The notes under the pieces were generated by a model, which saw nothing but the letters and a program-made list of their open reading frames with translations, had not been told where the DNA came from and ran no database searches. The translations under genes were made by a program, and so were the position numbers. From positions 62,001-126,000 of the IMG/VR virus record IMGVR_UViG_3300021181_000006: a DNA stretch of 64,000 bases; one strand, written 5' to 3'. Shown here in pieces: positions 17,629 through 27,385 of this stretch; position 1 is the first letter of the stretch, and every line of letters starts with the position of its first letter. The DNA is from a virus.

Positions 17629-18813
17629 ATGCATGCAAAAGAGCTGAGGGTATGCCTCCAGACCGGACTTTTCGAGAACTGCGAAGAGGATGGCCGACAA
17701 ATCTTTGTTCCCTATATCATTGGCGAAAAGGGTGACGGTAAGTCCACCATCGTCAAAGAACTATGTGCCGCAAATAATGCGTATATGATCGATATTCGAC
17801 TGGCTCTCGAAGATGTTCCTGATCTTAAAGGCTTCCCTTTCGTGGACAAAGTCCAGGTGAATGGGCAGACGGTCAGCCTCACAAGCTTCGCTACGCCTGA
17901 TTGGATCCCGCATGGTCATAGGCTCCAGGAGATCCTACAAAGTGGCACCAAGAGGACGGTAGGCCCCTTTGCTGGCAAGCCATTCCAGTGGGTGGTCATC
18001 TTCTTCGATGAGATGGCTCGTGCCAAGTTGGACGTGCATCAGATCATCTTCCGTATGGTGCTGGACTTCCAGCATGGCGATATCACCTTCGACAAGTGTG
18101 TTCGCATCGTTTCGGCAGATAATCCTGCTACTAAGGACTATAAGGGGGTTAATAAGTTGGATGCCGCATTGGCAAACCGCTTTACGACTCTCTCGTACTC
18201 AGGTCCGACGTTGGCTGAATGGTCGGAATATGAGGCAGCTCATTCTGACTCGATGATCATCCGTTTCTTGACTGAACAGACATCTATGTTCCGCAAGGGT
18301 AATGCCACTCCTCGAACTCTCTCAAAGATTGGCCGTCGTGTGCTCAAGTCGTCTGCCAAGACGAATGGAGCTATTCTGTTCCAACTGCTCTGCGGTATGT
18401 GTGGCGAGGAATTCGCCGCCGCATTCCTCAGATATTATGAGAGCAGCTACAAGGCCATCAAGGCTAAGACTATCTTCGAGGGAACCAAGAAAGAATTCGA
18501 GAAGGCTGTTGCTCAGATCAAGGACTGGAATGCCAGTCATGGCAAGCAGTCTGATGCCATTGCGGATACCGCTATGGACATGCTGGAGTACATGAAGGAG
18601 CCGTATAACTACGTCAACTTCAATGTGAGTCGCTTCATCGAGGTGCTCAATGCATTTCCTGAGGATAAGACCTGGATGATTGTTCGCATGATCGCGGATA
18701 ATCGTGCCGAGAAGTATCCTGAGGGCTACAAGAAGATCCATCCGATTATCCTGCAGAATGCGGATATCAGGGCGATCATCTCGACGCTCTCTGCCAAGCT
18801 GGGAACACTGTAA
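17629..18813 (+). CDS. MoxR-like AAA+ ATPase
   Basis: 394 aa. Walker A GEKGDGKST (32-40), Walker B VVIFFDEMA with DE at 127-128, sensor-1-like SADNPAT, arginine-finger region ALANRF. MoxR ATPases act with VWA proteins as remodelling chaperones; a VWA protein is at 21873. Codons are noticeably richer in C/G at third positions than in neighbours, suggesting high expression or separate ancestry. Strong hairpin terminator follows. Confidence 0.88.
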   Translation: MHAKELRVCLQTGLFENCEEDGRQIFVPYIIGEKGDGKSTIVKELCAANNAYMIDIRLALEDVPDLKGFPFVDKVQVNGQTVSLTSFATPDWIPHGHRLQEILQSGTKRTVGPFAGKPFQWVVIFFDEMARAKLDVHQIIFRMVLDFQHGDITFDKCVRIVSADNPATKDYKGVNKLDAALANRFTTLSYSGPTLAEWSEYEAAHSDSMIIRFLTEQTSMFRKGNATPRTLSKIGRRVLKSSAKTNGAILFQLLCGMCGEEFAAAFLRYYESSYKAIKAKTIFEGTKKEFEKAVAQIKDWNASHGKQSDAIADTAMDMLEYMKEPYNYVNFNVSRFIEVLNAFPEDKTWMIVRMIADNRAEKYPEGYKKIHPIILQNADIRAIISTLSAKLGTL

Positions 18814-21872: not shown

Positions 21873-23171
21873 ATGTCTGATTACGGCAAAGGGCAGCTCT
21901 ATTCGATAGCGCGTACTTATCTTATTAAGTTCCGACCCTTTTATGCATCGTTCATCCAGGACTGTGCGATTAATTTAGAATGGGATAAAAATCCCGTCGA
22001 TTCGTCCATTGTCAATGGACGCATACATTTGTATGTCAACGAAGCGTTTCTCATCGAGCAGGGCACCACTCCAAAAGAGCTGGCACTACTGATTGAGCAA
22101 CAGGTCAATCTGTTAGTGAATAAGCATCAGATCCGTTCTGTGAATCATGAACTCGGTAGATACGTGGCTGCTGCGCATATCGCAACATCACAAGTCTGCT
22201 TCTCGAAAGAGTTCCCTGACTATGCTCAGATTCTGACTCACGATAAAGCGAAAGAGAAGTTTCAGAACTTTCCTGGCCAAGAGAAGGCTGCAGAGATCTA
22301 TTATGACGCGATCCCACCAGATCCGCCGAGTGATAAAGATATGCAGCCGTACATGCAGCCAGAAGGTGGTGGAGATGCTGGTGAAGGTGAAGGTAAAGCA
22401 GGTGATGGAGAAGGTGAGGGACCTCCTGGTCCTAAGCCAATCCAGCATGGTGCTGCATGGCAGGAAACCAATACTAACGAAGAACAGTTCGACTCTATTC
22501 TGCGTGACGTCGTGAAAGATGCTGCTGGTAAGAACCCAGGAAACATTCCAGGGCATCTCAAGGAGCTGATCGATAAGATCTTGCGGCCACCTGAGGTTCC
22601 TTGGGAGGAAGAGCTGAAGGACTTTATCGAGTCTAAAGTGACGACTGATACGGATCCATCATGGAAACGTCGCAATCGTAACTATGCTCACGCTCCTTAC
22701 ATCATGAAGGGTAAGCAGCCTTCCTTCAGAAGCAGATTCGTTGTGTTTATTGATACATCTGGTTCGGTTAGCTCAGATAATCTGAAGCTGTTCCTGGCCG
22801 AGATGGTCGGTATTTACAATGCTTCGCGTCATACACTCATCACCGTTTGTGTCGATCATTCGGTACAGTCAGTAGCTGAGTTCGATGGGGATGCGAAGTT
22901 CGAGTTCGCTGGTCGTGGAGGTACTCAATTCGACGTCACTATTAAGATGTGTAATGGCGATCTGACCGAGTTAAGCGATCCTATTCGTGAGAAGTATCTC
23001 GAATTACTCGAAGCTGATACCGATATCGATGGTGCTATCTACTTCACTGATGGTGAGTGCGGTCTGTCTGAAACGACAAACCTTCCACTGTTATGGGTGA
23101 TTACACCAGATGGCACCGTGCCAAAGAATTTCCCAGGCAAGGTGGTCCAGATGAAGGATAAAAAGAAGTAA
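21873..23171 (+). CDS. VWA-domain protein with degenerate metallopeptidase-like N-terminus
   Basis: 432 aa. C-terminal VWA domain with MIDAS residues: DTSGS (294-298), GGTQFD, FTDGE. A Gly/Glu-rich linker (164-187) joins an N-terminal domain resembling the DUF2201 putative-metallopeptidase type, but the expected HExxH helix reads LLIEQQVNLLVNKH, so it is probably inactive. Such proteins pair with MoxR AAA+ ATPases; the partner is at 17629. It directly precedes the ubiquitin-like cassette. Confidence 0.8.
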   Translation: MSDYGKGQLYSIARTYLIKFRPFYASFIQDCAINLEWDKNPVDSSIVNGRIHLYVNEAFLIEQGTTPKELALLIEQQVNLLVNKHQIRSVNHELGRYVAAAHIATSQVCFSKEFPDYAQILTHDKAKEKFQNFPGQEKAAEIYYDAIPPDPPSDKDMQPYMQPEGGGDAGEGEGKAGDGEGEGPPGPKPIQHGAAWQETNTNEEQFDSILRDVVKDAAGKNPGNIPGHLKELIDKILRPPEVPWEEELKDFIESKVTTDTDPSWKRRNRNYAHAPYIMKGKQPSFRSRFVVFIDTSGSVSSDNLKLFLAEMVGIYNASRHTLITVCVDHSVQSVAEFDGDAKFEFAGRGGTQFDVTIKMCNGDLTELSDPIREKYLELLEADTDIDGAIYFTDGECGLSETTNLPLLWVITPDGTVPKNFPGKVVQMKDKKK

Positions 23172-23194: not shown

Positions 23195-23201
23195 AGCGAA
23201 T

Positions 23202-23234
23202 AGAGGGATATATCATTGTATGATATATCTCTCT
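23202..23234 (+). promoter_or_regulatory. Hairpin in the leader of the modifier gene
   Basis: AGAG-G-GATATATCAT-TGT-ATGATATATC-T-CTCT hairpin, without a T run, in the 5' leader. May end the VWA transcript, stabilise the mRNA or regulate it. Confidence 0.5.
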
Positions 23235-23274
23235 AAAATTATTAAACTCCATTTCTCATAGAAATTCATGCATC

Positions 23275-23496
23275 ATGGCTACAACCAAGGTTTATAAGGG
23301 TGCCAACCAGATCGCCGAGTCGAGTCTTGTTGGACGCACCATCACCAGTATCTTCAGCGATGACACCATCGTGGACGTACTGAATCTGTCCGGTGACGAG
23401 ACTATTCGCGTCAACGGTGAGCAGGCAGATCGAAACTATACTATCCGCAGCGGTGACGCTGTTGAGTTCTACAAGCAGCAGGGAACCAAGGGTTAA
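23275..23496 (+). CDS. ThiS/MoaD-like small modifier, PRTRC protein C-like
   Basis: 73 aa. Short beta-grasp layout: VYKGANQIAESSLVGRTI, TIVDVLNLSGDETIRVNG, then NYTIRSGDAVEFYKQQGTKG. RVNG...I.SGD.V.F is typical of ThiS/MoaD and PRTRC C proteins. It ends in TKG rather than GG, so conjugation would need a variant tail or the protein may act non-covalently. It has its own promoter box and a strong terminator, and GC-rich third positions, pointing to abundant independent expression. Confidence 0.75.
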   Translation: MATTKVYKGANQIAESSLVGRTITSIFSDDTIVDVLNLSGDETIRVNGEQADRNYTIRSGDAVEFYKQQGTKG

Positions 23497-23555
23497 TAAC
23501 CTTTTGTTCTGATGTAGCGTAACGTCTGCAGTGGTAGACGAAGTCGGAGTGACTT

Positions 23556-23587
23556 AAAGAGCCTAATATGTATTAGGCTCTTTTTTT
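23556..23587 (+). terminator. Strong rho-independent terminator
   Basis: AAAGAGCCTAATA (23556-23568) / TATTAGGCTCTTT (23571-23583) with a T7 run; ends the modifier transcript before the E2-like gene. Confidence 0.88.
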
Positions 23588-23612
23588 AGTTAAAAAGTGG
23601 TAGAAAGTATAT

Positions 23613-24398
23613 ATGGTAATATATAGAACCATGGATACTGGCAATACTACAAGTTTTACGGTTACTACTAATGTCAGTGGAAGTTTTGGGAATATTGGTA
23701 ACTATGTAAATTTTGTCACAGAAGTCCAGCAACCGAAGGAACAACATCCCGTGACCATCGAAATCGATGAATCAGGCAGAGTAACGTTCTTTGAGAAGAG
23801 AATCATCAAAGAAACGAACTTAGAAAATCTGTTAAAGACATTCGAGGAGCAGAAGCCGTTGTCATCAGGCTTACTCCCTCAAAACTGTATCAATTACACG
23901 AGACGTGGTCGGGCTACGATCTATGTGATCGAAGAGTTCCCTGGTGTTCGCAAAATTAATTATCAGACGCAGGCACGTGAACTACTCACTAATATGCCGA
24001 TTAGCGTACCATTCTTATATTGGGTTCTTGTCTTTAATCCTGCATTAACTGCATATGTGCGTTGTTCCAAACGTCGCTTGAAGACCTTGGACGATCCAGT
24101 ATTCCATCCTCCACTTCTGAACGTATACGATCAGGGTTCTGGCAAGATCTGTGCTGGTGATGGTGTTCAAGTAGATGCTCGTTCTAATCTGATAGAGAAG
24201 ATCGAACAGTTTACGAAAACACTCTGGGGATCTAATTGGAATCATGATTTGACTCCTGGATATCCTGCAGAGTTTAATAACTATCCACAATACATTCGTA
24301 TGTCATCCGCTGATCCAACCGTATGGTCCAAGCTCAGTTACAGGAAAAGCGACCTCAGTATTAATCAACTTCTCATGAGATTATCAACGAGTGAGTAA
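23613..24398 (+). CDS. Prokaryotic E2-like protein, PRTRC protein B-like
   Basis: 261 aa (ATG 23631 is an alternative start). ISVPFLYWVLVFNPALTAYV and HPPLLNVYDQGSGKICAGDG resemble PRTRC B / Prok-E2 family D, where a G-x-[IV]-C-x-G cysteine (here Cys180) is the proposed catalytic residue. It would accept the small modifier from the ThiF-like E1 (inference from gene order and family). The first ~45 residues are Thr/Ser/Gly-rich and probably flexible. No clear promoter box directly upstream. Confidence 0.68.
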   Translation: MVIYRTMDTGNTTSFTVTTNVSGSFGNIGNYVNFVTEVQQPKEQHPVTIEIDESGRVTFFEKRIIKETNLENLLKTFEEQKPLSSGLLPQNCINYTRRGRATIYVIEEFPGVRKINYQTQARELLTNMPISVPFLYWVLVFNPALTAYVRCSKRRLKTLDDPVFHPPLLNVYDQGSGKICAGDGVQVDARSNLIEKIEQFTKTLWGSNWNHDLTPGYPAEFNNYPQYIRMSSADPTVWSKLSYRKSDLSINQLLMRLSTSE

Positions 24399-24714
24399 AA
24401 AAGAGAGCGCGCAAGCCAATCGTGATCTCTATTACATGCTGAATGAGTATACTACTAGTATCAAAACGATCTCTATCGAAGAATATATCGATAAAGATCT
24501 GAAGATATTAACGGTAGAAGAATTAGCGAACACCAAGGTCACTGAAGCCAACTTCGGTGAAGTTATGTTCGTTAAGAAACTCCGTCAGTATGCCATGGAT
24601 AAAAACGTGGTATTTCGTGGCATGTCTATGGCAGATAAAATTGCTTTAGATAAAATTATTAACAAGATCCCCCTTTGTCAAGCTGTCACTACCGTAGAGG
24701 ATACTGACCTGTGA
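24391..24714 (+). CDS. Small protein within the ubiquitin-like cassette
   Basis: 107 aa from GTG, overlapping the E2-like gene by 8 nt and the JAB gene by 4 nt, so translationally locked into the cassette. Charged, helical, no recognised family; candidate accessory subunit. Confidence 0.65.
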   Translation: MSKKESAQANRDLYYMLNEYTTSIKTISIEEYIDKDLKILTVEELANTKVTEANFGEVMFVKKLRQYAMDKNVVFRGMSMADKIALDKIINKIPLCQAVTTVEDTDL

Positions 24715-26105
24715 AACTCGTTGGAACGCTGGGCATGCTGCCCCTTTATCATCTCGAAAAAGGAGATGATGTATCACAAATGTGCGATGATATCGAAAAG
24801 ACTTCATATATCCTGGCTCATGATGGGCTGTGGTTACTGAAGAAAACTGACTTTTTCTGGAGTCTTCGCGCTGCGAAGGTTCCTAACGCGGTTGAGAAGA
24901 CCGAAGCACTCATTAATACGCATGGCCTGCCTTTGGTCCCAAAAGAGGAGATGGATACGGCTATCGCCTTTTTTCGTCGCGTGTACGCCATACATAAGTC
25001 CGAAGCCGCGCTCATTCTCTATTGGCTCCCAGGCACGACGCAATTTAAGTGGACCTGTCCCAAGCAAACTGTTGCTCCAGCGTCAGTTAACTACAGCGAT
25101 GTCCCACATCCAGGCGAAGGCTGGATTGTCCTCCTCCACATGCATTCCCATGCATCGATGTCAGCATTCCATTCGGGTACTGACGACCATGATGAAAAAT
25201 TCGTGGATGGCTATAATATCACGATTGGGAAGCTAAACACTCCTGGTTATGAGTTTGAGTGCCGCATCATGATTGGTGGACTTAGCCTGAAGTCGAAGAT
25301 GGAAGATATTGTGGAGAATTGGTTACCTCCGGTTGGAGAGTTCCCTAATGAGTGGTTAAATAATGTGAATACTCCTCCTCCGTATGTGGCTCCTGCATAT
25401 ACGCCATATACTCCACTGGTTGGGTGTTTCCCGCCAGTTTCTCGTCCTTGGGATGATAAATACATGGCGCCTCAAGGCCATGGGTCACATAACTATGTTC
25501 CTCCCGGTCAGCATGGAGAGTGGAAGAGTGATCTGGGAAAATCGAGAGTCCCATTGACTTCGACGATGAAGCAGCAGAACAACGTCGATGGGAAGCGCTC
25601 TCATGGGAATGCTAAGAAGAATAAGAAATATCAGGCGCCCATGTCTGATCTGTATCCGCTCTCAGGGCCATCAAGAAATACATCTGAAACTGTCGCGGTT
25701 CGTAAATGGATCGATGCCAACTTCAAGTTTCTGACAGAACTCGGATATACTGGACAGGATTACGCTGCATTTCTGTCGATGACTCTTGCACAGGCCAAAG
25801 AAGAGCTTGAAGCAGATAATCGTGATTACTTTATTGGTAATGGATTAGCTCTTCCGACACAATGTGATATTTTAGGGTATAAACAGAATGTTATCCCCTT
25901 TAATCAACATGCGAGTGGTCGTGTGATGTTGACTCCTGTCGAACAGGAGAGCGATGGATTTGTTCCTGCTCCGTTCAACAGCAAGACCGATACGACTCCT
26001 GAAGAGGAGACGACGATTATTAGCCGTGAAACCGAACCTGGTAAAGTGGATGAAAATCCATTACAAGGTATTTATCTGACGAAAGCAAATGGCGGAATCA
26101 TCTGA
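24711..26105 (+). CDS. JAB/JAMM metalloprotease, PRTRC protein A-like, with long C-terminal extension
   Basis: 464 aa from GTG. HMHSHASMSAFHSGTDD contains an exact JAMM H-x-H-x10-D (His145, His147, Asp158), with upstream glutamates such as Glu98. JAMM enzymes remove ubiquitin-like modifiers or trim their precursors. Residues ~205-330 are Pro/Tyr/Gly-rich and probably disordered; ~335-380 forms a second helical segment. Longer than typical PRTRC A proteins. Overlaps the E1 gene by 17 nt. Confidence 0.85.
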   Translation: MKLVGTLGMLPLYHLEKGDDVSQMCDDIEKTSYILAHDGLWLLKKTDFFWSLRAAKVPNAVEKTEALINTHGLPLVPKEEMDTAIAFFRRVYAIHKSEAALILYWLPGTTQFKWTCPKQTVAPASVNYSDVPHPGEGWIVLLHMHSHASMSAFHSGTDDHDEKFVDGYNITIGKLNTPGYEFECRIMIGGLSLKSKMEDIVENWLPPVGEFPNEWLNNVNTPPPYVAPAYTPYTPLVGCFPPVSRPWDDKYMAPQGHGSHNYVPPGQHGEWKSDLGKSRVPLTSTMKQQNNVDGKRSHGNAKKNKKYQAPMSDLYPLSGPSRNTSETVAVRKWIDANFKFLTELGYTGQDYAAFLSMTLAQAKEELEADNRDYFIGNGLALPTQCDILGYKQNVIPFNQHASGRVMLTPVEQESDGFVPAPFNSKTDTTPEEETTIISRETEPGKVDENPLQGIYLTKANGGII

Positions 26106-27042
26106 GATCCTGACTCTCCCTACTCGGGAGAGTCAGCCCAATATGCAGCATGGCGTGTATGTTATTGGACTTGGTGGAATCGGATCCTGGCTCGTTGAGC
26201 CAGTGATGCGGTTCCTCCATTCCAAGAAGATGCTCGATCATACTGATATCATTCTGGTTGATGGCGATAAATACGAAGCAAGTAATCGTAATCGTCAAAT
26301 CGTTCATCCTAAGCTGATTGGTATGAATAAAGCGGATGCGACTGCGCAACGCATGCGTTCATACTTCCCAGAGTCATCCATTATCGCAGTGCCTCAATTT
26401 ATCTCAACAAAGCATGGGTCCTATTTCAAACAGTATCCTGCCAGGACCTGGATCCTCTCATGCTCAGATAATAATGTGTGTCGTCTCCATCTCAGTCAGA
26501 TTGCTGATGGCATGGATAATGTCACATTATTAACTGGTGGTAATGAGATGACTGATGGCAATTCTCATCTCTTTCATCGTACTGCTCGTAGCCATCAGAA
26601 TGAGACCTTACTGAAGAAGCATCCTGAGATTGCAGAAGCAAACGATGGTGATCGTTCAGCAATGTCATGTGAACAGCTTGCAGCATTACCTAGTGGTGGG
26701 CAGATTATTGTCACCAACTTTGTTTGCGCATCCACTATGTTAATGCATTTTTATCAATCCTGGGAAGCATATGCCAACCACAAGATCCCCGACTACAACG
26801 AATCATTCTTTGATATCAACAAATGCGCTTTCAACAGCATCGAAACTCGCTCCAGATCACGCGAGCAAGAACGTAGTCCAACAGAGCGAAACATTAGAGC
26901 GCGAGTCAATCTCTCAGAAGTCACAGCAGCCAGCGCAGAGCTTGTCTTCAATACCACCGAAGAGCCACCTCGGGTCCGAGATCGAGATCGAGGAGGAGGC
27001 GCTGGTCCTGCAGTTCCCGGACCAGAAGTTGAGGCTCGATAG
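26089..27042 (+). CDS. ThiF-like E1 activating enzyme, PRTRC ThiF-like
   Basis: 317 aa. Nucleotide-binding GLGGIG (27-32), VDGD (57-60), ASNRNRQ (64-70) typical of ThiF/MoeB/UBA1 adenylation domains. MSCEQLAALPSGGQ places Cys194 as the candidate thioester cysteine. No zinc CxxC pair was seen, as in the PRTRC ThiF group. The C-terminal ~70 residues are Arg/Glu-rich low complexity. It would adenylate the modifier at 23275. Confidence 0.85.
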   Translation: MAESSEILTLPTRESQPNMQHGVYVIGLGGIGSWLVEPVMRFLHSKKMLDHTDIILVDGDKYEASNRNRQIVHPKLIGMNKADATAQRMRSYFPESSIIAVPQFISTKHGSYFKQYPARTWILSCSDNNVCRLHLSQIADGMDNVTLLTGGNEMTDGNSHLFHRTARSHQNETLLKKHPEIAEANDGDRSAMSCEQLAALPSGGQIIVTNFVCASTMLMHFYQSWEAYANHKIPDYNESFFDINKCAFNSIETRSRSREQERSPTERNIRARVNLSEVTAASAELVFNTTEEPPRVRDRDRGGGAGPAVPGPEVEAR

Positions 27043-27043
27043 G

Positions 27044-27385
27044 ATGAGCAACTGGCCTATTGTCGATATGACCGACAATAGGATCATTTATGGATATGTA
27101 AATATTGATGAATGGTATGCAAATCCTGATGAATTATCGTGTATTCCTCTACCATGTGGTGATAAGTGGTTAGAAATTACTCCAGATATGACATCTGGAG
27201 TATATCTGGCAGAGATGCAGGACTGTCTCGCTGAAGAGCGCGATTATCCAAGAGTCTGCGTGGAATGCGGAACGCTCATTTCTGAGTGTTCAGTCCATAC
27301 CACGCAAGAATGTCCTTCGTGCCGTCAGGAACCAGAACAAGTATTTCCACTCCATGAACTGCTGTCAACACCAAGAGGTCCATAA
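27044..27385 (+). CDS. Hypothetical protein with zinc ribbon
   Basis: 113 aa from ATG 27044 after GAGG. C-terminal CVECGTLISECSVHTTQE then CPSC may form a zinc ribbon. A longer in-frame start at 26771 overlaps the E1 tail and has poor protein character. TAATG coupling to the next gene. Confidence 0.65.
   Translation: MSNWPIVDMTDNRIIYGYVNIDEWYANPDELSCIPLPCGDKWLEITPDMTSGVYLAEMQDCLAEERDYPRVCVECGTLISECSVHTTQECPSCRQEPEQVFPLHELLSTPRGP

Follow-up and report, generated by a model that had tools for sequence, protein, structure and literature searches.

A phage cassette that probably encodes a ubiquitin-like conjugation and deconjugation pathway

Do bacterial viruses encode ubiquitin-like tagging pathways of their own? 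The question is raised by a 64,000-nt stretch of viral DNA (hereafter the window), bases 62001–126000 of the 184,466-base IMG/VR record IMGVR_UViG_3300021181_000006, in which five open reading frames (ORFs) on the plus strand between positions 23275 and 27042 encode a small modifier, an E2-like protein, a 107-residue protein, a JAMM protease and an E1-like protein. All five lie in the order given in a preliminary description of the sequence. To our knowledge, the bacterial ubiquitin-like conjugation systems whose role has been tested are all host defences, and we know of no function assigned to the PRTRC/6d class since its prediction in 2006. We consider it likely that the cassette encodes a functional phage pathway for ubiquitin-like conjugation and deconjugation, related to operon type 6d of Iyer 2006 and to PRTRC; this estimate applies to the biochemical pathway and not to any single role. 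What carries it is homology, gene order, conservation of the catalytic residues and of the modifier tail, the predicted modifier fold, and the wide occurrence of such cassettes in large phages.

From the sequences we infer thioester transfer, conjugation to protein amino groups and deconjugation. The ThiF-like E1 would adenylate the modifier's C-terminal glycine, Gly73, and carry the modifier on Cys194, from which it would be handed to Cys180 of the family-D E2; the E2 would attach it to target proteins at their amino groups, and the JAMM protease would take it off again and, in relatives whose modifiers have extensions or tandem copies, would also mature it.

Enzymes and gene order of the cassette

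The E2-like protein matched Prok-E2_D in Pfam (2.5e-8, 34.3 bits against a cut-off of 25) and the E1 matched Pfam ThiF (1.4e-18), both passing the cut-offs; the match of the JAMM protein to Pfam Prok-JAB (0.0045) fell below its cut-off. Among the profile searches that the preliminary description had proposed, those with the NCBIfam models PRTRC_B, PRTRC_A and PRTRC_ThiF gave significant matches to the E2 (4.6e-7, 29.4 bits against a cut-off of 131), the JAMM protein (1.7e-9, 37.5 bits against 102) and the E1 (9e-13, 48.1 bits against 145), yet with scores of about one-quarter to one-third of the curated cut-offs, while the profile for PRTRC protein C matched no window ORF and was likewise silent on control sequences. 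Sequence searches of the PDB with E2 and JAMM profiles returned no matches.

The GLGGIG motif and candidate thioester cysteine reported earlier for the E1 hold up, in that Cys194 and the nucleotide-binding glycines are invariant in an alignment of 10 6d/PRTRC E1s, those of plasmids included. The E1 gene adjoins the JAB gene, and its product carries no rhodanese fusion. At the proposed G-x-I-C-x-G site of the E2, the CxG corresponds to C180-x-G182, and all 13 viral E2s compared share N170, C180, G182 and N210; H211 (in NHDL) is present downstream of C180, and this histidine varies among the viral E2s whereas N210 does not. The exact HxHx10D noted in the protease is H145-x-H147-x10-D158, and E98, H145, H147, S155 and D158 are conserved throughout the family. 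Type 6d is also marked by a JAB-N domain with a strictly conserved Arg and Trp, and the alignment of the family took in the N-terminal region of the JAMM protein.

The order modifier-E2-JAMM-E1 is identical to that of plasmid PRTRC cassettes (C, B, A, ThiF), the last four ORFs overlap one another by 4–17 bases, and the five-ORF set lies far beyond chance. Operon type 6d comprises a stand-alone ubiquitin-like protein with a C-terminal glycine and separate genes for a family-D E2, a JAB protein and an E1 (Iyer 2006, PMC1779556); the window also has a glycine-ended ubiquitin-like protein with separate E2, JAB and E1, and departs from 6d in its unrelated 107-residue protein, its phage location and its longer, ThiS-like modifier. 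With plasmid PRTRC systems (TIGR03734–03738 and others) it shares the gene order, the significant B, A and ThiF matches and a modifier tail TKG, as in PRTRC C of Methylomonas and of phage BgVeeders33, but it is phage-borne, scores far under the cut-offs and has neither ParB nor a protein F-like gene. The 184-kb record, possibly an incomplete genome, yielded no ParB-related protein, and profiles of two families of the alpha-helical 6d protein matched no window ORF. Because the scores lie below the cut-offs and ParB and the alpha-helical protein are missing, we concluded that the cassette is a phage variant of operon type 6d and not a strict PRTRC member; the PRTRC-like label first given to it agrees with the gene order and the significant matches. 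The phage lambda pair TAPI/TAPK (gpI/gpK) resembles it in joining a ubiquitin-like domain to a JAB protease that cleaves it, but lacks E1 and E2 and acts as a tail-assembly switch rather than a conjugation pathway.

Elsewhere the source record has genes for a major and a further head protein, for tail fibres and for a tail sheath, and so represents a tailed phage of the contractile type. Searches of the record with phrog_2 and PF03237 recognised no terminase, perhaps because only part of the genome is present or because this gene has diverged.

Table 1. Features of the cassette and its flanking hairpins, in window coordinates
Feature	Position	Strand	Basis
Hairpin, 16-bp stem, 3-nt loop, between the vWA and modifier genes	23201..23235	+	Fold -19.8 kcal/mol, z -6.5
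Ubiquitin-like (beta-grasp) modifier, 73 residues, C-terminus QQGTKG	23275..23496 (ORF 23275-23496)	+	Relatives' profile, AlphaFold2 model, codon use
Intrinsic-terminator-like hairpin then T-run, between modifier and E2	23556..23583	+	-16.1 kcal/mol, z -4.5
E2-like protein (Prok-E2_D), 261 residues, candidate active-site Cys180	23613..24398	+	Pfam, PRTRC_B, invariant residues
107-residue protein without assigned family, within the overlapping gene series	24391..24714	+	ORF
JAMM/JAB metalloprotease, 464 residues, E98, H145xH147, S155, D158	24711..26105	+	PRTRC_A, residue conservation
ThiF-like E1, 317 residues, GLGGIG, candidate thioester Cys194	26089..27042	+	ThiF, PRTRC_ThiF, invariant C194

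The modifier and its x-K-G tail

No profile library named the 73-residue protein above cut-off (Ub-Mut7C 0.0094, TGS 0.062). Viral loci whose E1s group with that of the window (13 rows, support 97/92, long branches) have a small gene directly after the E1, and a profile built from six such genes matched the window's modifier ORF at 1.3e-11. Stripped of its C-terminal tail columns, the same profile still matched this ORF (1.6e-6) and gave no other significant match in the window; since these columns had been deleted, the x-K-G tail provides an independent check. The window's modifier ends in GTKG and its relatives in AGQKG, AGEKG, SGVKG, AGKKG followed by C, AGEKG followed by SL, or YDKG. In plasmids and other phages the modifiers are shorter, finish in AGTKG, AGVKG or TGTKG, and are encoded singly or as 2 to about 6 tandem copies, each with a KG end. 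On this comparison, x-K-G looks like the diagnostic tail of the modifier family, where ubiquitin or ThiS has GG. Profile-profile comparison linked the longer and shorter types with a probability of only 86% (E 5e-6). Some relatives' modifiers carry extensions of 1–8 residues after KG, and such extended or tandem modifiers need a protease, which the JAMM protein could supply.

The AlphaFold2 model of the modifier is a beta-grasp fold with a disordered tail (predicted local distance difference test, pLDDT, 83.6). Its PDB neighbours in Foldseek included SUMO, NEDD8, ubiquitin, Urm1, SAMP1 and MoaD, with probabilities of ~1 and E values of only ~0.001–0.03.

A previously unnamed protein of ~90–180 residues, mostly ending in DFI or DYI, was seen between the modifier and the alpha-helical gene in full 6d operons at 11 loci (L006, L009, L044, L048, L053, L068, L089, L090, L092, L095 and L117).

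Related cassettes in phages, plasmids and metagenomes

Scanning viral contigs with the E1 alignment gave 70 loci and with the JAMM alignment 7; scans of the viral contigs with the single window E2 and JAMM proteins gave no match. E2, JAMM and E1 occurred together at about 30 viral loci, several of them near-identical, at all of which the E2 cysteine and JAMM core residues are kept; at all but two the E1 cysteine aligns. Terminase was matched in 17 of the 24 cassette-bearing viral records tested (39–527 kb; 16 strong matches and 1 weak). Complete cascades, as predicted from their genes, occur widely in large phages of diverse lineages, and the earlier view of a near-complete conjugation and deconjugation set inside a phage is upheld by the profiles, the residue conservation and these many homologous cassettes.

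Neither the window DNA nor its E2 protein matched cultured phages, and cultured carriers were found only via intermediate relatives. Bacillus phage KLEB27-3 (216 kb) encodes a four-copy modifier, a DFI protein, the alpha-helical protein, an E2, a JAMM protein noted as PRTRC_A and an E1. Recognisable cassettes are also carried by Vibrio phage D69 (187 kb), with a three-copy modifier, by Burkholderia phage BgVeeders33 (33 kb) and by Salmonella phage Arash (181 kb). In Acinetobacter phage ME3 (235 kb) the JAMM protein is annotated as PRTRC A but split, the modifier candidate ends in DGNKAA and the E2 match is weak (0.0047); the ME3 JAMM gene (L118:2754-5864) consists of two ORFs separated by ~2 kb with a tRNA-Met and small genes. 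Because cultured phages carry versions of the cassette, its function can be tested: common cascades in large phages, a diagnostic tail and cultured carriers make this orphan family accessible to laboratory infections.

The open-access literature, to which our search was confined (subscription papers and preprints lay outside its scope), yielded no description of phage-borne E1/E2/JAB cascades. The text of a survey of jumbo phages mentions no JAB, and ubiquitin only for eukaryotic hosts or in a cited title (Iyer et al. 2021).

Related cassettes also lie on contigs, perhaps of phage origin, of metagenome-assembled genomes classified as Parcubacteria, Lentisphaerae and a Planctomycete; because of these close relatives, the idea of a virus-only E1 clade was rejected. 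Two 'plasmids' of 220–240 kb, L009 (NZ_AP024502, B. velezensis) and L006 (NZ_CP065512, Cytobacillus), gave weak, split terminase-like matches; because of these, and because a phage E1 is 51% identical to a relative's, they may be phage genomes or phage-plasmids.

Several cassettes have additional genes. At L021:8621-10249, and similarly in several relatives, a classic AAA ATPase gene (PF00004 and AAA_lid_3) directly follows the modifier, which suggests an unfoldase partner for conjugates. In the phage cassette L048:9153-10004 a reverse transcriptase gene (RVT_1, 1e-22) directly follows the E1, the post-E1 genes at L068:9230-10120 and L044:8976-9761 look reverse transcriptase-like by eye, and a SpoVG-like gene comes next in L048 and L068. 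A second large phage has a divergent set (L001:7708-12537) whose E1 is without the Cys region and whose modifier candidate ends in DVAGM and not KG; this set is perhaps degenerate or of different chemistry.

Expression, possible roles and genomic neighbours

Strong hairpins flank the modifier gene on both sides. The one before the E2 gene looks like an intrinsic terminator; for the upstream one a terminator role is uncertain because no long T-run follows it. In codon use, with the major head and sheath genes as reference, the modifier ranked 4th of 243 ORFs, and the E2, JAMM and E1 genes 56th–111th. The Arash modifier ranked first of 19 genes against capsid and tail genes. One reading is that surplus modifier could come from either an insulated strong gene or tandem copies. 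More speculatively, its insulated gene and capsid-like codon use may mean that modifier is produced in large excess and serves large-scale protein tagging.

Arash also links the enzymes to particles. Gp246–Gp249 are listed as structural proteins from liquid chromatography-mass spectrometry of sucrose-gradient particles (PMC10585845, Table 2). The paper counts 252 coding sequences (PMC10585845), GenBank stops at gp251c and numbers after gp239 seem shifted by one, but under either numbering the E1 (gp246c), JAMM (gp247c) and E2 (gp248c) proteins are all in the virion list, and GenBank tags the E1 and E2 'structural protein'. The 66-residue Arash modifier ORF, ending in RTGTKG (L123:29694-29894, minus strand, OQ632216), is unannotated and gp251c lies there in another frame, so modifier peptides may have been missed.

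Because of the capsid-like codon use of the modifier and the Arash proteome, we rank host proteins (in takeover or counter-defence) slightly behind phage or virion proteins as targets, each an uncertain choice, and regard other targets as unlikely; virion, takeover and counter-defence roles are unproven. Only tentatively, and with more doubt than confidence, do we propose that large phages of many lineages practise mass tagging, with a KG modifier made at capsid-like levels in some, virion-associated E1 and E2, and reversal by the JAMM protease. If true, a mass-tagging cascade that decorates virion or host proteins during infection would serve a bacterial virus and not its host. The commonness of complete cascades in large phages raises the possibility that bacterial viruses use ubiquitin-like tagging for themselves.

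Several observations weigh against a working pathway or against this wider proposal. The preliminary description had named unrelated folds of the modifier and E2-like proteins as a result that would count against it; the modifier model is a beta-grasp, and the weak E2 model (pLDDT 63) matched no PDB fold. The window's variant is divergent, with a long branch in the E1 tree and no close relative in the collections searched, and neither an E3 nor a known reader or protease partner came to light. Codon use gives a modest signal: synonymous resampling equalled the modifier's score in 90 of 20,000 trials, one 73-codon stretch of the E1 matches that score, and the four-copy modifier gene of KLEB27-3 ranks only 10th of 35, so that codon adaptation does not extend to every modifier gene. 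Finally, the Arash authors caution that abundant enzymes may co-purify (PMC10585845), and the Arash E1, JAMM and E2 proteins may have been carried along when the particles were prepared.

Host anti-phage ubiquitin-like and CBASS systems employ E1, E2 and JAB enzymes, and the phage JAMM and E1 are their distant relatives, which would fit a cassette that chiefly defeats such defences, for example through a JAMM protease that strips conjugates or an E1 and modifier that act as decoys. We find this unlikely as the chief function: an inhibitor would not need a full forward pathway complete with modifier and E2, the same cassettes stand beside replication genes on large plasmids, and no recognised anti-defence gene was noted around the cassette. 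The logic of E1, E2 and JAMM is that of Bil and type II CBASS, but the window's set is phage-borne with its own KG-tailed modifier. PADLOC 2023 models matched only as E1-E2 models via the ThiF core, with none for the E2 or JAMM proteins, in a release that may or may not include Bil models. The suggested role against Bil or CBASS found no support, and a virion-linked or takeover role is at least as likely, although counter-defence could be compatible with a conjugation pathway.

A sulfur carrier system, in which ThiF adenylates a ThiS/MoaD-like protein to make a thiocarboxylate donor for tRNA or cofactor thiolation and the JAMM protein is a maturation protease, seems to us improbable. The E1 does belong to the ThiF family, and the modifier fold is like those of ThiS, MoaD, Urm1 and TGS, with weak Pfam ThiS/TGS matches in L020; but the presence of a dedicated E2 with an invariant cysteine and the conserved Cys194 of the E1 disfavour sulfur transfer and, with the tandem KG-tailed modifiers, suit conjugation better. 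Library scans recognised no rhodanese, thiolase or cofactor gene among the neighbours examined, and operons for thiamine and molybdopterin contain no JAB genes (Iyer 2006, PMC1779556). That the cassette is a decaying, functionless passenger from a plasmid, as its divergence, long E1 branch, lack of a close relative in the collections searched and two missing operon members might suggest, is very improbable given five intact, tightly packed ORFs, retention of all catalytic residues and the modifier tail, capsid-gene-like codon use in the modifier and the recurrence of phage cassettes across diverse lineages.

The 107-residue protein had no match in profile libraries and no homologue beside other cassettes. 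Upstream of the cassette lie genes for a MoxR-like AAA ATPase (17629-18813, phrog_1297) and a DUF2201 metallopeptidase-vWA protein (21873-23171). Both were rejected as cassette members and taken as mere neighbours, because neither recurs beside other cassettes and the MoxR-vWA pair is known from jumbo phages (Iyer et al. 2021); the PHROGs label 'HNH endonuclease' on the vWA family phrog_1314 looks wrong. At the downstream end, a zinc-ribbon-like ORF (26771-27385) shares ~270 bases with the 3′ end of the E1 gene in another frame, and its real start is probably further downstream.

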